Shown in pieces: positions 25,048-31,587 of a DNA stretch of 33,303 nucleotides (position 1 is the stretch's first letter; every line of letters starts with the position of its first letter). Origin of the DNA: Acidimicrobiia bacterium (lineage in GTDB: Bacteria > Actinomycetota > Acidimicrobiia > Acidimicrobiales > MedAcidi-G1); contig DUAC01000061.1 in assembly GCA_012961035.1 (NCBI GenBank), positions 1 to 33,303 of the forward strand. Direction: 5' to 3'. The translations under genes and the position numbers were made by a program. The notes below the pieces were generated by a model. That model worked only from the letters and a program-made list of their open reading frames with translations. It did not search any database and was not told the DNA's origin.

Positions 25048-25577
25048 GCGGCAGTGCACTTCCCAGGAGGGCCCTGAAGAGGGTGGAGCGGACCTTCGCG
25101 TTCCTGGACCTCTGCGGATTCACCGCCTACACGGACGAGAAGGGTGACGCGGCGGCGTACGACGTGATCTCCAGTTTCCGGACGGCGGTGCGACAGGTGG
25201 CCGCCGAGAGGGGGGTTCGCCTCGCCAAGTGGCTGGGCGACGGCGTGATGATGATCGGCGTCGAGCAGGAGGACCTTGTCGAGGCGGTCATCGACATCGA
25301 GTACCTGGTCGACGAGAGCAGGTCGCCGCTACCCATGCGCGCCGGCATCGCGAGGGGTCGGGTGCTCCTCATCGACGGTGACGACCACGTCGGATCGGCG
25401 GTGATCCTGGCATCGCGTCTCTGCGACCGGGCCGAGCCGCACCAGATCCTGGCCCAGGCTGGCACGGTCTCCCTTCAGATGGTGAACGCCGTGGAGATCC
25501 GCCTGGGGGAGCACGACGTGCCGGGATTCGCCCACAGGATCGAGATAGTCCAGCTCACGGCGCCGAGTGGCCGCTGA
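25044..25577 (+). CDS. Stand-alone class III nucleotidyl cyclase-like domain protein
   Basis: A 177-aa protein consisting almost only of a class III adenylate/guanylate cyclase catalytic domain. Both metal-binding aspartates are visible: Asp22 in FLDLCGFTAYT and Asp66 in KWLGDGVMM. Lys62 sits in the purine-specifying region. The conserved transition-state region reads HVGSAVILASRL; Arg125 is kept, but the Asn normally found in the VN-x-AAR motif is Ile121. It may thus be weak, regulatory or dependent on a partner. No receptor, HAMP or TM segment is attached. It overlaps lgt by 4 nt and is translationally coupled to it; the ATL gene follows after 6 nt. Confidence 0.85.
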   Translation: MSGSALPRRALKRVERTFAFLDLCGFTAYTDEKGDAAAYDVISSFRTAVRQVAAERGVRLAKWLGDGVMMIGVEQEDLVEAVIDIEYLVDESRSPLPMRAGIARGRVLLIDGDDHVGSAVILASRLCDRAEPHQILAQAGTVSLQMVNAVEIRLGEHDVPGFAHRIEIVQLTAPSGR

Positions 25578-25583
25578 GGCACC

Positions 25584-25883
25584 GTGACCGCTCCGACGCT
25601 GGGAGCCGATGAGGGCTTCACACCCTTCGAGGCATCGGTCGCAGCGGTGCTCGACGCCCTGCGGTCCGGCGAGGTGGTGACGTATGGCGAGGTGGCTGCC
25701 GAGGCCGGCCATCCCGGGGCCCACAGGGCGGTCGGGAGGTTCCTGGGAGTGCATGACGGCTATCCGTGGTGGCGGGTCGTGACCTCGACCGGGCGCCTTG
25801 TGCCGGGTCACGAGGTCGAGCAGGCGGACCGTCTGGCTGCCGAGGGGGTGGCGACCGGCGACGGCAGGGTGCGGCCCGGCTGA
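25584..25883 (+). CDS. Alkyltransferase-like (ATL) DNA-binding protein, MGMT C-domain family
   Basis: A 99-aa protein equal to the DNA-binding domain of O6-alkylguanine-DNA alkyltransferase. The winged helix VVTYGEVAAEAGHPGAHRAVGRFL includes the probable nucleotide-flipping Arg48. In the active-site motif the alkyl-accepting Cys of PCHRV is replaced, reading PWWRVV with Trp62. Loss of Cys with Trp in its place defines ATL proteins, which bind alkylated guanines and hand them to nucleotide excision repair instead of repairing them directly. GTG start, 6 nt after the cyclase gene. Confidence 0.9.
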   Translation: MTAPTLGADEGFTPFEASVAAVLDALRSGEVVTYGEVAAEAGHPGAHRAVGRFLGVHDGYPWWRVVTSTGRLVPGHEVEQADRLAAEGVATGDGRVRPG

Positions 25884-25924
25884 CACTCCATCCGTCCGGC
25901 ACACCCCGGGCACCGGCGCGACGG

Positions 25925-26032
25925 TAGGATGGGGGCACCCACCCGGGTCCGGTCGGCCGCCTGTATGCCGACCCCGGGTCGGATTCGTCACCCGGGATGA
26001 GCGGTGACGGTACCCGCCGAGGCGCGGGTGAC
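25925..26032 (+). promoter_or_regulatory. Promoter and highly structured 5' leader of the DEAD-box helicase gene
   Basis: TAGGAT (25925-25930) is a good -10; transcription near 25937 would give a leader of about 130 nt. Three hairpins follow: 25951-25957 with 25967-25973 (7 bp), 25973-25979 with 25990-25996 (7 bp), and 26012-26017 with 26024-26029 (6 bp). GTCACCCG at 25987-25994 can instead pair perfectly with CGGGTGAC at 26025-26032 (8 bp), or partly with GGTGAC at 26003-26008. These helices exclude one another, as in a conformational switch. I do not recognise a known RNA family; cold-shock-type control of a helicase gene is a plausible guess. Confidence 0.5.
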
Positions 26033-26067
26033 GATTCGGTGGCCATGCCGCCGGGAAAAGAAGTCCA

Positions 26068-27258
26068 ATGACGACGACCCAGTTCGCCGAGACGACGATC
26101 CAGTTCACCGATCTGGGCATCGACCAGGATCTGGTTGATGTCCTTGCCAAGCGGGGGATCACCACTCCGTTCGAGATCCAGACCCTCGCCATCCCCGACG
26201 GCATCGCCGGGCGGGACGTGTGTGGCAAGGCCAAGACGGGGTCGGGCAAGACCCTCGCCTTCGGCATCCCGATGATCCAGCGCATCTCCAAGGCGAAGCC
26301 CCACCGGCCCACCGGCCTGGCCCTCGTGCCCACCCGTGAGTTGGCCGTGCAGGTCTGCAAGGAACTCGAGCCGCTGGCCGCCACGCGGGGCCTCACCTTC
26401 GAGGCCATCTACGGCGGTTCGCCGATCGAGAAGCAGATCGCCGCACTGAAGAGGGGCGTCGACTTCGTCGTGGCCACCCCCGGACGGATGATCGACCTCA
26501 TCCAGCAGGAGGAGCTCTCGGTGGCCGACCTGGAGGGCGTCGTGATCGACGAGGCCGACCGCATGGCCGACATGGGCTTCATGCCCCAGGTTGAGTGGAT
26601 CCTGAGGCGCGCCAAGAAGGACCACCAGACGCTGTTGTTCTCCGCCACCCTGGACGGCATGGTGGGTGCCCTGATCAGCCGCTACCAGACCGATCCGGTG
26701 ACCCATGAGGTGGCATCTAACGATGTGACGGTGGCCGAGATGGAGCACCGCTTCCTGGCCGTCCACGAGATGGACAGGGTCAGGGTCGCTGCCCGGATCG
26801 TGGAGGCGTCCAACAGGACGATCATCTTCTCCCGCACCAAGTGGGGTGCGGACAAGCTGACCGACAAGCTGCTCGGTGAGAACGTGAGGGCGGCCGCCAT
26901 CCACGGCGACCTGAGGCAGGCCCAGCGGGAGAAGGCACTCTCCGACTTCCAGGCCGGCAAGGTGAAGTGCCTGGTGGCCACGGACGTGGCCGCACGGGGG
27001 ATCCACGTGGACGACGTGGACGTGGTCATCCACTACGACCCGCCGTCCGATGCCAAGACCTACGTGCACCGCTCCGGCCGAACAGCGCGGGCAGGGGAGT
27101 CCGGCGTGGTGGTCAGCCTGGTGCTCTGGAACGAGGAGCTCGAGGTGCGCAAGCTGCTGCGCCGTCTCGGGTTGAAGCAGCCGATCGTGGAGGTCTACTC
27201 CAACGATGTGCGGCTGGACGACCTGATGGCGTGGGACCCGGCCAACGAGGCCGCCTGA
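26068..27258 (+). CDS. DEAD-box ATP-dependent RNA helicase
   Basis: 396-aa RNA helicase with all core motifs in order: Q motif TPFEIQTLAIP, motif I AKTGSGKT, PTRELAV (Ia), TPGRMIDL (Ib), VIDEADRMAD (II, DEAD), LFSAT (III), IIFSRTKWGADKL (IV), VATDVAARGIHVDDVDVVIH (V) and HRSGRTARAG (VI). The protein ends soon after the HELICc domain, so it lacks the long basic RGG or DbpA tails of many RhlE/CsdA-type enzymes. Likely roles are ribosome assembly or mRNA turnover; these are family knowledge, not read here. Start ATG 26068 has a weak AAGAAG upstream and a structured leader. The MTase gene follows after 30 nt. Confidence 0.95.
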   Translation: MTTTQFAETTIQFTDLGIDQDLVDVLAKRGITTPFEIQTLAIPDGIAGRDVCGKAKTGSGKTLAFGIPMIQRISKAKPHRPTGLALVPTRELAVQVCKELEPLAATRGLTFEAIYGGSPIEKQIAALKRGVDFVVATPGRMIDLIQQEELSVADLEGVVIDEADRMADMGFMPQVEWILRRAKKDHQTLLFSATLDGMVGALISRYQTDPVTHEVASNDVTVAEMEHRFLAVHEMDRVRVAARIVEASNRTIIFSRTKWGADKLTDKLLGENVRAAAIHGDLRQAQREKALSDFQAGKVKCLVATDVAARGIHVDDVDVVIHYDPPSDAKTYVHRSGRTARAGESGVVVSLVLWNEELEVRKLLRRLGLKQPIVEVYSNDVRLDDLMAWDPANEAA

Positions 27259-27288: not shown

Positions 27289-28896
27289 GTGACCGACCGG
27301 CGCCTGGACCTGGCGGCCGACCGGCTCGCCGACGAGGCGTCCGTCCGGCTGCAGTCGGTCGATGATCGTCGGCGACGCGGTGCGTTCTTCACCCCGCCGG
27401 ACGTCGCCTCGGCCCTTGTAGCCGAGGTCGTTCAGCGGGGAACGGTCCTGGACCCTGCCTGTGGCAGCGGGGTGTTCCTCCTGGCCGCGGCCAGACGTCT
27501 CCTGGAGGTCGGTGCGGCCGATCGTCGTTCCATCGTCCGGCGGCACCTCTTCGGTGCCGACGTGGATCCCGCCTCGGTGGACGCCACGCGTCGTGTGCTG
27601 GGGGCCTGGGCCGGAGTCGATCCCGACGAGGTATCCGGCGTGGTCGTGGCTGATCCGCTGCACGAAGGAGTCGATCCATGGCCGGACCGGCCAGCCGACG
27701 GGTTCGACGCCGTGGTCGGAAATCCACCGTTCCTGGGCCAGCTCAAGGCGTCAACATCGAGGACGGGTGCTGACCGTCAGGCGCTGCGGGAGAGATTCGG
27801 CGACCTCGTGGGGGCCTACACGGACGCTGCCTGGCTGTTCCTGGCCCTCGGCCTGGAGGTGCTGGCGCCGGGCGGTCGGATGCTCCTCATCCAGCCGCAG
27901 TCGCTGCTGGCGGCAAGGGATGCCGGCCCCGTCCGGGACCGGCTGGTGACGTCTGGTCGGCTGACGGGCCTGTGGCTTGACCGTTCGGGCGTCTTCGCCG
28001 GTCACGCCGAGGTGTGCGCCCCGATCGTGGAGTCCCGGACCTCCGGGTCGCAACCCGATGTCCCGGTGCGTCTCCTCGTGGATCGTTCGGTCGAGGCGGC
28101 TGGCCATGTACCGCCACCCGTACCGGGCGAGACCTGGGGCGGCCTGGTGGCCGGCCTCCTGGGAATTCCAGAGGCCGGTCGGATCGGTGACCGGTCGGCT
28201 GGCGACGGGCGGATCGGCGACAGGGCAGGCGTCACGGCCGGCTTCCGGCAGCACTACTACGCCCTGGTCGGAGCCGTATACGAGCGGTCCGGGCCGGAGG
28301 ACCGTCGTGCGCCACTGCTGACCACGTCGTCGGTGGATCCGCTGCACTCCCGTTGGTCGAGCGTGCCGTGCCGCTTCGACGGACGCCGTTGGACGGCGCC
28401 GGTGGTGGACCTGACGGCGGTCGGGGCCACCGACCCGACGGTCGGCTCCTGGTTGGAGGCACGCCGTCGCCCGAAGCTCCTGGTGGCCACCCAGACGACG
28501 GTCGTGGAGGTCGTCGTGGATCCGGTCGGGGACCTGGTCCCCCTCACCCCACTTGTCGTCGTCGAGCCGGATCCCGGCGACCTCTGGCACCTGGCGGCAG
28601 CACTCAGCGCCCCGGCGGTGACAGCCCTGGCGGCCAGGCGGTCGGTCGGCGCTGCCCGTTCGGCCGGACGCATCAAGTTGTCGGCCAGCCAGGTGGCGGA
28701 CCTGCCCCTGCCTGCCGACTCGACGGCATGGGACGAGGGGGCCGACCTGGCCAGGGCGCTCCACGGCGCCGGACGGGCCACCACCCGGGATGCCTGGATG
28801 GAGTTCGGCGCGGTCATGGGACGTGCCTACGGGGCGTCGGAGGAGGGCCTCCTGGAATGGTGGTGGGCCCGCCATCCGGCCCGTTCCAGGGCCTGA
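27289..28896 (+). CDS. N6-adenine DNA methyltransferase (Eco57I/TaqI-like, gamma class)
   Basis: 535-aa SAM-dependent DNA methyltransferase. The order is motif X region (RGAFFTPPDVASALV, about 30-44), SAM motif I DPACGSG (55-61) and catalytic motif IV NPPF (145-148), which is the gamma-class arrangement. The C-terminal half (about 250-535) is probably the target-recognition domain, ending with IKLSASQVADLPLP, as in TaqI/Eco57I-type proteins. No nuclease motif is seen in it and no restriction gene is next to it, so it looks like a solitary methyltransferase. A short imperfect GRIGDR duplication occurs near residue 300. GTG start at 27289; the target site is unknown. Confidence 0.87.
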   Translation: MTDRRLDLAADRLADEASVRLQSVDDRRRRGAFFTPPDVASALVAEVVQRGTVLDPACGSGVFLLAAARRLLEVGAADRRSIVRRHLFGADVDPASVDATRRVLGAWAGVDPDEVSGVVVADPLHEGVDPWPDRPADGFDAVVGNPPFLGQLKASTSRTGADRQALRERFGDLVGAYTDAAWLFLALGLEVLAPGGRMLLIQPQSLLAARDAGPVRDRLVTSGRLTGLWLDRSGVFAGHAEVCAPIVESRTSGSQPDVPVRLLVDRSVEAAGHVPPPVPGETWGGLVAGLLGIPEAGRIGDRSAGDGRIGDRAGVTAGFRQHYYALVGAVYERSGPEDRRAPLLTTSSVDPLHSRWSSVPCRFDGRRWTAPVVDLTAVGATDPTVGSWLEARRRPKLLVATQTTVVEVVVDPVGDLVPLTPLVVVEPDPGDLWHLAAALSAPAVTALAARRSVGAARSAGRIKLSASQVADLPLPADSTAWDEGADLARALHGAGRATTRDAWMEFGAVMGRAYGASEEGLLEWWWARHPARSRA

Positions 28897-28972: not shown

Positions 28973-28979
28973 GTCGTCA

Positions 28980-29092
28980 CAACATCACGAGAGGCCCGGT
29001 TCGCCGGGTCCGGCAACCTGGGACGGACACCCAAGGTGCTCACCCACCGGAGACGGTGGGGATGTGGCCCGAGAGGGCAACGAAGTGTCCGC
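28980..29092 (+). ncRNA. SAM-IV-type S-adenosylmethionine riboswitch upstream of metX
   Basis: The conserved SAM-I/IV core can be read: CACGAGAGG at the start, CCGGCAACC (29010-29018) and AAGGTGCT (29033-29040). Helices: P1 28982-28986 with 29061-29065; a compact P2 hairpin (CCCGG-TTCG-CCGGG); P3 29019-29022 with 29030-29033; P4 29043-29049 with 29054-29060 closed by GAGA; P5 29067-29070 with 29075-29078, also GAGA. The P3 loop CGGACA (29024-29029) is perfectly complementary to TGTCCG (29086-29091), the second pseudoknot expected for SAM-IV, and P2 lacks a K-turn. The downstream genes are methionine-synthesis genes, as expected for SAM control. Confidence 0.9.
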
Positions 29093-29141
29093 CGGCTGGC
29101 CCACGGGTCATGCTGTCGGCGCAGAGCGCTGGTGTCACCCG

Positions 29142-29158: not shown

Positions 29159-30385
29159 ATGACGCACGAACCGACGAGCGACGACGGACATTCCGTCGAC
29201 CAGCCCGTCCACCCGCGCGCCTATGCGGGCGACCTGCCGGTCACCGGTGCATGGCGTCCGGGCGACCCGGTCGGTGATCGGCGCTTCGCTCCGGTCGGTG
29301 GCGGCCGTCCCTTCGTGCTGGAGGGCGGCGGCGTCCTCACCGAGGTGTCGATGGCCTTCGAGACGTGGGGGGAGCTCACTGCGGCGGCCGACAATGCGAT
29401 CCTCATCTGCCACGCCCTCACCGGCGACAGCCACGCCCATGGCCAGGCCGGTGCCGCCCATGCCACCCCCGGCTGGTGGAACCGCGTCATCGGGCCGGGG
29501 TGCGGCATCGACACCGACCGGTACTTCGTGGTCTGCGTCAACTCGTTGGGCGGCTGTCAGGGTTCCACCGGCCCCTCATCGCTGGATCCGGAGACCGGCA
29601 CGCCCTACGGATCCAGGTTCCCGACGGTCACCACCCGGGACATCGTCCGCTGCCAGGCAGCCGTGGCCGACCACCTCGGCGTCGACTCATGGATGGCCGT
29701 CGTAGGCGGTTCCATGGGTGGGATGCAGGTCCTGGAGTGGGGCGTCATGTTCCCCGACCGGGTGCGTGCCATCGCTCCGATCGCCACGACGCTGGCTGCC
29801 AGCGCCCAGCAGGTGGCGTGGAGCGCCGTGGGTCGAACTGCCCTTGCGCTGGATCCGCGGTTCCGGGGTGGCGACTACTACGACGCCAGACCCGGCGACG
29901 GTCCGTTCGCCGGCCTGGCGATCGCCCGGTCGGTGGCCCAGATCACCTACCGCAGCGCCGAGGTGTTCGACGACCGGTTCGCCCGTGAGCTGGTGGACCC
30001 CCGGTCGGTCTTCGGCCACTGGGACCGGTTCCAGGTGGAGTCCTACCTCGACTACCACGGTGAGAAGCTGGTCCGCCGATTCGACGCCAACAGCTACCTG
30101 ACCCTGAACCGGACCATGGACCTGCACGACCTGTCGCGTGACAGGGGATCCATGGAGTCCGCGATCCGGCGTCTGGCGGACCTTCCCGCCATGACGATGA
30201 GCATCAGTTCCGACGTGTTGTATCCGACCGCCCAGCAGGCGGCCATTCGGGATGCCATCCGTGCGGCAGGTGGTCGCTGCGACCACCATGTGATCCAGAG
30301 CCCTGACGGGCACGATGGCTTCCTGCTGGCGGCCCGACAGGTCGGGTCGCTGCTGGCCGGATTCCTGAGAGAGGTTGATGTCTGA
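29159..30385 (+). CDS. metX: Homoserine O-acetyltransferase MetX
   Basis: Activates homoserine with acetyl-CoA for methionine synthesis. The 408-aa alpha/beta-hydrolase has ILICHALTGDSHAHG, GPGCGIDTDRYFVVCVNSLG, the nucleophile Ser185 in GGSMGGMQVLEWG and the late DGHDGFL histidine. The enzyme family also includes succinyl-using members, so acyl donor specificity is not certain. The first 30 residues are a hydrophilic extension. The ATG at 29159 is fixed by the AGGAGA Shine-Dalgarno; the frame is open to 29036 but this runs through the riboswitch. The stop shares one base with the next ATG (TGATG). Confidence 0.95.
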   Translation: MTHEPTSDDGHSVDQPVHPRAYAGDLPVTGAWRPGDPVGDRRFAPVGGGRPFVLEGGGVLTEVSMAFETWGELTAAADNAILICHALTGDSHAHGQAGAAHATPGWWNRVIGPGCGIDTDRYFVVCVNSLGGCQGSTGPSSLDPETGTPYGSRFPTVTTRDIVRCQAAVADHLGVDSWMAVVGGSMGGMQVLEWGVMFPDRVRAIAPIATTLAASAQQVAWSAVGRTALALDPRFRGGDYYDARPGDGPFAGLAIARSVAQITYRSAEVFDDRFARELVDPRSVFGHWDRFQVESYLDYHGEKLVRRFDANSYLTLNRTMDLHDLSRDRGSMESAIRRLADLPAMTMSISSDVLYPTAQQAAIRDAIRAAGGRCDHHVIQSPDGHDGFLLAARQVGSLLAGFLREVDV

Positions 30386-31587
30386 TGGTCGAACCACGGA
30401 ACGGTGCCGGAGGCGAGGTCCCACCGGACGTCGGCCCGGAGACGGCTGCCATCCTGGCCGGACGGGTCGAGGGGGAGCGGTCCTTGGCACCGGTGCTCTA
30501 CCCGTCGTCGACGTTCGAGTTCTTCACGGTCGAGGAGGGCCGGCACCAGGCCACCTCCATCGCGCCCGAGCGGTTCTACAGCCGCTACGGCAACCCGACC
30601 ATCAACGCCTTCGAGGCCACGATCGCGGAGCTGGAGGGTGCCGAGGCAGCGCGGGCCTTCGCCTCGGGCATGGGGGCGATCAGTGCCGTGGTGCTGGGCA
30701 TCTGTTCGTCAGGCGACCACATCGTGGCCCAGCGCCAGCTCTACGCCGGGACGCAGCTGTTCCTGCAGACGGCCTGCCCGCGCTTCGGAATCGACGTCAC
30801 CTTCGTGGACGGCACCCAGCCCGGAGCCTTCGCCGAGGCGGTCGTGCCTGGAAAGACGATGCTGGTGCTGGCCGAGACTCCGGCCAACCCGCGCCTCGAC
30901 ATCATCGACCTGGATGCCCTGGGTTCCATCGTCAACGCCCTGACCGTCGTGGATTCGACGTTCGCCACGCCGATGGGCCAGACGCCCCTCGCCCACGGGG
31001 TGGACCTGGTGCTCCACTCGGCGACGAAGGGGATCGCAGGCCACAACGACGCCACGATCGGCGTGGTGGCAGGCTCCGAAGACCTGATGGCGTGGCTGTG
31101 GGGCTTCGCCGTGCTGCACGGCGCCAACGCCTCGCCCTACGACGCCTACAACGCCCACAGGGGGGTGCGGACCCTGGGCATCCGCCTGCGCCAGCAGACC
31201 GAGTCGGCACGACTCCTGGCTGACTTCCTGGAAGCCCACGATGCGGTGTCCGACGTGCGGTATCCGGGTCTGGCTTCCCATCCCCAGCACGAGCTGGCTG
31301 TGCGCCAGATGCGGTCCATGGGCGGTCTGCTCACCTTCGACCTGGCCGGTGGCCTGGAGGCGGGTCGGCGGTTCGTGGAGGCCACCTCTATTGCACGTCA
31401 GGCCACCTCCCTGGGAGGACCGGAGACGCTGCTCTGCCATTCGGCCACGACCACGCACGTGAGCCTCACGCCCGAGGAGCTGGAGGCCTCCGGGATCGGG
31501 GAGGGGACGGTCCGGGTGTCGTGCGGGCTGGAGAACGTCGACGACCTGGTGGCTGACTTCGGCCGGGGGCTGGATGCTGCGGGCTGA
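30385..31587 (+). CDS. Cys/Met-metabolism PLP enzyme: O-acetylhomoserine sulfhydrylase or cystathionine gamma-synthase
   Basis: 400-aa gamma-family transsulfuration enzyme. The N-terminal RFYSRYGNPTINAFE motif binds the cofactor phosphate of the neighbouring subunit. Lys215 in LHSATKGIAGHNDATIG is the PLP lysine, VVDSTFATP supplies the Asp that holds the PLP nitrogen, and SLGGPETLLCHSATTTH is the C-terminal signature. Coupling to metX, with a 1-nt overlap and a shared SAM riboswitch, implies use of O-acetylhomoserine for homocysteine or cystathionine. The sequence alone does not separate MetY, MetZ and MetB, so no symbol is given. Confidence 0.92.
   Translation: MVEPRNGAGGEVPPDVGPETAAILAGRVEGERSLAPVLYPSSTFEFFTVEEGRHQATSIAPERFYSRYGNPTINAFEATIAELEGAEAARAFASGMGAISAVVLGICSSGDHIVAQRQLYAGTQLFLQTACPRFGIDVTFVDGTQPGAFAEAVVPGKTMLVLAETPANPRLDIIDLDALGSIVNALTVVDSTFATPMGQTPLAHGVDLVLHSATKGIAGHNDATIGVVAGSEDLMAWLWGFAVLHGANASPYDAYNAHRGVRTLGIRLRQQTESARLLADFLEAHDAVSDVRYPGLASHPQHELAVRQMRSMGGLLTFDLAGGLEAGRRFVEATSIARQATSLGGPETLLCHSATTTHVSLTPEELEASGIGEGTVRVSCGLENVDDLVADFGRGLDAAG

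Follow-up and report, generated by a model that had tools for sequence, protein, structure and literature searches.

The gene for a DEAD-box RNA helicase in the window, that is the whole stretch of 33,303 nucleotides analysed here, is preceded by a leader RNA which, from the comparison of related sequences, we consider with near certainty to be a real and conserved RNA. The best explanation is a cis-regulatory leader that is bistable and most probably serves the autogenous control of the helicase, a reading to which an even chance is given. Since two mutually exclusive folds have been retained, the leader probably controls helicase production.

The contig of the window belongs to a marine Acidimicrobiales-type genome (2.37 Mb in 212 contigs), and the leader lies on the + strand between a small alkyltransferase-like gene, which ends at 25883, and the helicase gene (26068..27258, + strand, 396 aa; Pfam DEAD 3.9e-46 and Helicase_C 7.8e-31). 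The helicase protein missed every cut-off of the NCBIfam equivalogs, and its N-terminus (26068-26120) has an apparent short insertion, the near-repeat TTTQFAETTIQFTDLG, where relatives have TTTQFADLG. Immediately upstream of the leader RNA (25931-26067, + strand), which extends from there to the helicase start, a -10 promoter box TAGGAT was located at 25925..25930 (+ strand); it reads TAGRNT in 27 of 27 aligned leaders, with T, A, G and the last T invariant and the TANNNT frame thus perfectly kept, and no conserved -35-like sequence was found upstream of it in the same alignment. The preliminary description had held a transcription start 3' of 26032 to be incompatible with its reading; the sole conserved -10 box stands 5' of the entire element, and the start is inferred from its position to be a few bases downstream. 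A short ORF beginning with the ATG at 26045 (26045-26071, MPPGKEVQ) overlaps the helicase start and is absent from other leaders or broken in them by indels, and it was therefore not counted as a conserved leader peptide. Further downstream, a lone N6 DNA methyltransferase-like gene (27289-28896) follows the helicase immediately, and an ordinary methionine locus comprises a SAM-I/IV riboswitch (28977-29094, 54.4 bits) 5' of an alpha/beta-hydrolase gene, likely metX (about 29186-30385), and a gene for a Cys/Met PLP enzyme (30385-31587).

Within the window sequence taken by itself, all the partners that had been claimed for an 8-nt segment at 25987-25994 (GTCACCCG) are present. Its perfect 8-bp complement at 26025-26032 (CGGGTGAC) is part of a longer helix of 10 bp, between 25985-25994 (TCGTCACCCG) and 26025-26034 (CGGGTGACGA); the match to GGTGAC at 26003-26008 grows to a 7-bp helix of 25986-25992 (CGTCACC) with 26003-26009 (GGTGACG); and the pairing of 25973-25979 with 25990-25996 also exists. 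The fold z-score of the window leader was -1.28, with 20 of 200 shuffles folding equally well, and a perfect 10-bp helix arose in 24 of 500 dinucleotide shuffles. The structure of the single sequence is thus unremarkable for its composition, and consequently the reality of the leader structure had to be judged from relatives.

For this purpose the helicase was located in 58 of the 61 relatives searched, the leaders were excised from those loci and 27 of them were aligned. The RNAalifold consensus of the alignment consists of a 5' hairpin (P1), two local helices of the core (a:b and c:d) and a hairpin before the start codon (P3), and 97.5% of the cells in these helices are paired. Changes on both sides of a pair were found at 9 pairs, amounting to 36 cells, a number reached by none of 500 shuffles, and controls in which the pairing count was slid along the alignment were all far lower. 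The conservation and covariation that the preliminary description had proposed to look for in relatives were thus both found, with the covariation lying mostly in P1 and P3 and supporting these two hairpins. Within the genus, identity was 89% for the core, 75% for the 5' domain and 69% for P3 and its linker, compared with about 47% for the upstream spacer and 52% for fourfold codon sites of the helicase, and an identity above that of both spacer and fourfold sites implies strong selection on the element.

In place of the three GC-rich hairpins described at the outset, the leader is better divided into a bipartite 5' hairpin, a core and a pre-start hairpin (all on the + strand). P1 (25941..25979) has an outer stem (25941-25946/25974-25979), an inner stem (25953-25957/25967-25971) and a conserved GC in its loop; 5 of its pairs show changes on both sides and one inner pair is G-C in 16 and A-U in 11 of the 27 leaders. 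P3 (26037..26053), with changes on both sides at 4 of 7 pairs and 98.9% of cells paired in the 27 leaders, precedes CCGRGAA and the region of the start codon. Between them, the core (25985-26034) is built of four short words. Word a (25985..25994, UCGUCACCCG, consensus UCGUCRCCC) can pair with either b or d; word b (26003..26009, GGUGACG, consensus GGUGRCG) carries A at its R position in 10 leaders and G in the other 17, so that a U-A or U-G pair is retained; word c (26012..26017, ACCCGC, consensus RCCCGC) pairs with d; and word d (26024..26034, GCGGGUGACGA, consensus GCGGGYGACGA) consists of two overlapping halves, GCGGGY required by c and GGGYGACGA required by a, and is conserved across both of them.

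Two states are therefore defined by the words themselves: state 1, in which the local hairpins a:b and c:d coexist, and state 2, the long-range helix a:d, which excludes both. Each of the three helices can be formed in nearly every leader, as the proportions of paired cells among the 27 leaders indicate (a:b, 100%; c:d, 99.4%; a:d, 99.5%), and the mutually exclusive helices first noticed in the window are therefore conserved in relatives. Only one of the proposed partners of the segment failed in this comparison, since the pairing of 25973-25979 was kept in 65.6% of cells, no better than its shuffles, and is thus a chance feature of the window sequence. The a:b and c:d helices vary by wobble-type changes only, at four pairs in the case of c:d. 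The a:d helix is nearly without G-U pairs or mismatches, carries one both-side change, from one genome, and is accompanied by an inner helix of three pairs (alignment columns 74-76 with 88-90) that is 98.8% paired. In the divergent leader L024, words a (CGUCGCCC), c (GCCCGC) and d (GCGGGCGACGA) are altered jointly, the A to G change of word c being matched by U to C in word d, and both a:d and c:d are kept.

A covariance model of the leader was then run on 48 genomes that share the GTDB family of the window (marine Acidimicrobiales), and 31 of them were matched with 87-144 bits and one copy each; when a completeness of at least 90% is required, 22 of 23 genomes carry the leader. All 31 matches lie directly 5' of the helicase gene, the only gene with this leader, and the supposed tie between leader and helicase is accordingly that of a conserved structured 5' leader fixed to one gene. 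Genera g3 (MedAcidi-G1) and g5 lack the leader, as does most of g2 (MedAcidi-G2B), and its absence from genera of the same family indicates that the helicase can do without it. Marine MAGs account for the named helicase relatives, and MedAcidi-G1 and MedAcidi-G2B belong to the same family. Across 397 genomes of the order no strong match was obtained in any other family, and the weak ones (21-26 bits) were ruled out as instances of the leader since none adjoined a helicase gene. A phylum sample of 296 genomes gave nothing beyond the window's own matches. Searches against Rfam release 15 at the gathering score left the leader unmatched and recovered a tRNA and the SAM-I/IV riboswitch elsewhere in the window, and at lax thresholds the best match in the leader region was at chance level, in agreement with the early impression that no known RNA family is present. 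As judged by these searches, the window leader is a structured RNA family outside Rfam, limited to one marine Acidimicrobiales family in the genomes scanned.

A scan of relatives in other families did not bring up this RNA again; a different leader appeared instead. In family f23, the helicase orthologues are preceded by a -10 box, a covarying hairpin, GGGCCC and then a hairpin of the form CGGUU-loop-RACCG-AGAAA, whose loop sequence GGGUCC (loop nCGGGUCC) is complementary to GGGCCC and is predicted to form an H-type pseudoknot with it. This type stands 5' of the helicase orthologue at L114-L178 (for example L130 and L136), L193-L203 and L205; in 29 sequences 97.0% of cells are paired, the first hairpin has five both-side-changed pairs and the pseudoknot stem is nearly invariant. 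A model of it matched f23 genomes 12 times, each time directly 5' of the helicase; two further matches near 27 bits do not lie there, and no Rfam family was matched in the loci tested. Further families have still other leader types on their helicase orthologues. An apparent f23-type pseudoknot with altered stems (GGGYCCAUCUCC ... UGGUU GC GGGCCC GACCA) was noticed at L162, L164, L170 and L172, and a third type that looks paired (CGCGGGUCNACCUC ... GAGGCAGACCCACC ahead of the start codon) at L043, L044, L051, L053 and L157. The final pre-start hairpin ends in CCGRGAA in the window (26050-26060) and across several types of leader, among them the reduced leaders that AT-rich genomes carry (L022), and a hairpin with this ending may be an ancestral common part. 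With different leaders on the same gene in other families, structured control of the helicase seems to be recurrent across the order.

As a possible mechanism for the window leader, the local hairpins a:b and c:d would form first during transcription, and passage to a:d would require the opening of both, a task suited to an RNA helicase or chaperone. The helicase, or the ribosome or RNA-decay machinery that it serves, would recognise or remodel the core and in this way set the level of the helicase's own mRNA or protein, with mRNA decay, transcription elongation or ribosome loading as the output rather than a simple masking of the start region. Since the RNA occurs on no gene but that of the helicase, the most economical regulators would be the helicase or its partners, and one gene per genome with no regulon fits autogenous control better than metabolite sensing. 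The actual use of both states appears fairly probable from the alignment, and control exerted through the helicase itself is proposed more tentatively, at somewhat less than an even chance.

The switch has to be weighed against a static leader with a single fold, in which only one of the two states would form, to give the mRNA stability or to set the spacing of the ribosome, and the other complementarity would be a by-product. This is consistent with the RNAalifold consensus, which chose state 1 and not state 2 and requires no other fold, and with a start region equally open in either state. However, state 1 alone would leave the GACGA half of word d free, whereas this half hardly varies and is complementary to a; state 2 alone would leave b and c free, whereas their pairings are kept almost throughout. 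If one fold sufficed, part of b, c or d could drift; none of them drifts, which favours a switch and makes a static leader rather unlikely in our estimate. Nonetheless, there is little variation in words a and d, and the argument for switching would therefore rest mainly on complementarity preserved by invariance, and the same invariance could instead reflect a protein-binding sequence with a single real fold. A related explanation, considered about equally unlikely, makes the core an aptamer or cleavage site recognised by a different trans factor (a ribosomal protein, RNase III or RNase E, PNPase or a small molecule), with the helicase as the output. The core is indeed constrained beyond the needs of pairing, as its within-genus identity indicates, and related decay genes are regulated in this manner, for example PNPase via its own leader (cited in PMC2864571); on the other hand, the element occurs on one gene only, whereas ligand or ribosomal-protein elements are usually found on matching genes. 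Local alignment of six leaders to 16S and 23S rRNA was no better than for shuffles, one marginal case (4 of 100 shuffles) excepted, which speaks against rRNA mimicry and led to the rejection of words a and d as a mimic of the 16S decoding-site helix (CGUCACACC/GGUGAAGUCG). An element acting at the DNA level, such as an inverted-repeat operator, is highly improbable; inverted repeats immediately 3' of a promoter can act as operators, but the compensatory changes in P1 and P3, the tolerated wobbles, the varying loop lengths and the position of the element wholly 3' of the -10 box argue for RNA.

A temperature-dependent device, either a cspA-type cold-sensing leader or an RNA thermometer in which temperature sets the fold balance and hence helicase output, was also considered. 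Thermosensing is possible. In all 27 leaders the energies computed for the two states at 37 C differ by 0-8 kcal/mol, state 2 being usually the lower. Moreover, helicases of this kind are often required in the cold, and DEAD-box helicase genes are often cold-induced, some in a leader-dependent manner, according to the portions of the reports cited (PMC5472812; PMC3485376). However, cooling from 37 to 15 C moves the state balance by no more than a few kcal/mol and in no uniform direction, and the predicted openness of the start region merely rises from 0.64 at 10 C to 0.70 at 37 C. The mean unpaired probability of the ribosome-binding region was 0.68 in both states at 37 C and 0.61 and 0.63 at 10 C, so that masking of the SD in one state was not seen in the predictions and no direct read-out is visible. 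With equal access and a weak temperature effect, a thermosensor or an SD-masking riboswitch is not supported, and cold sensing as the explanation of the leader is judged improbable. An intrinsic terminator (hairpin and U run) was also searched for in 25400-26400 and none was present, which leaves no intrinsic attenuator there.

Among known systems, the cspA-type leaders, carried by a cold-linked RNA chaperone gene, likewise have two mutually exclusive folds, and differ from the helicase leader in that the start region of the latter is predicted to have the same openness in either fold, with hardly any effect of temperature. In E. coli, the rne leader is a substrate of the enzyme that it precedes. 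The same is described for the E. coli pnp leader (PMC2864571, in the part drawn on here). These leaders and Actino-pnp (RF01688) resemble the present one as structured leaders on an RNA-decay gene, but they belong to other genes and structures, and the helicase leader has no Rfam match. Closer in gene type, a 186-nt structured leader is needed for full expression of Caulobacter crescentus rhlE, which is more highly expressed in an rhlE mutant (PMC5472812, as excerpted); the likeness lies in a long structured leader affecting the expression of a DEAD-box helicase, whereas the phylum is another one and the excerpt describes no sequence or structure family and no conserved alternating helices. 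Synechocystis crhR, a DEAD-box helicase controlling its own expression together with temperature, shares the self-control and differs in working by transcript and protein turnover, with no comparable conserved leader RNA described in the cited part of its report (PMC3485376). By analogy, the rhlE and crhR precedents point the same way as control involving the helicase itself.

Taken together, a bistable leader under autogenous control would add a defined RNA to the control of bacterial RNA helicase levels, for which few cases are known and most are without one. It offers a compact conserved RNA on one helicase gene, in which words a, b, c and d predict the effects of single and compensatory mutations, and if the helicase does remodel its leader, the leader would serve as a natural assay for the activity of the enzyme towards its own message. 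More speculatively, and rather less likely than autogenous control as such, the helicase may sense its own activity by converting the local hairpins of its transcript to the long-range fold, or the reverse, the leader thereby reporting free helicase capacity, with Acidimicrobiales families having evolved different RNAs for this on the same gene. The second leader type found in another family suggests that such a control point was perhaps built more than once.
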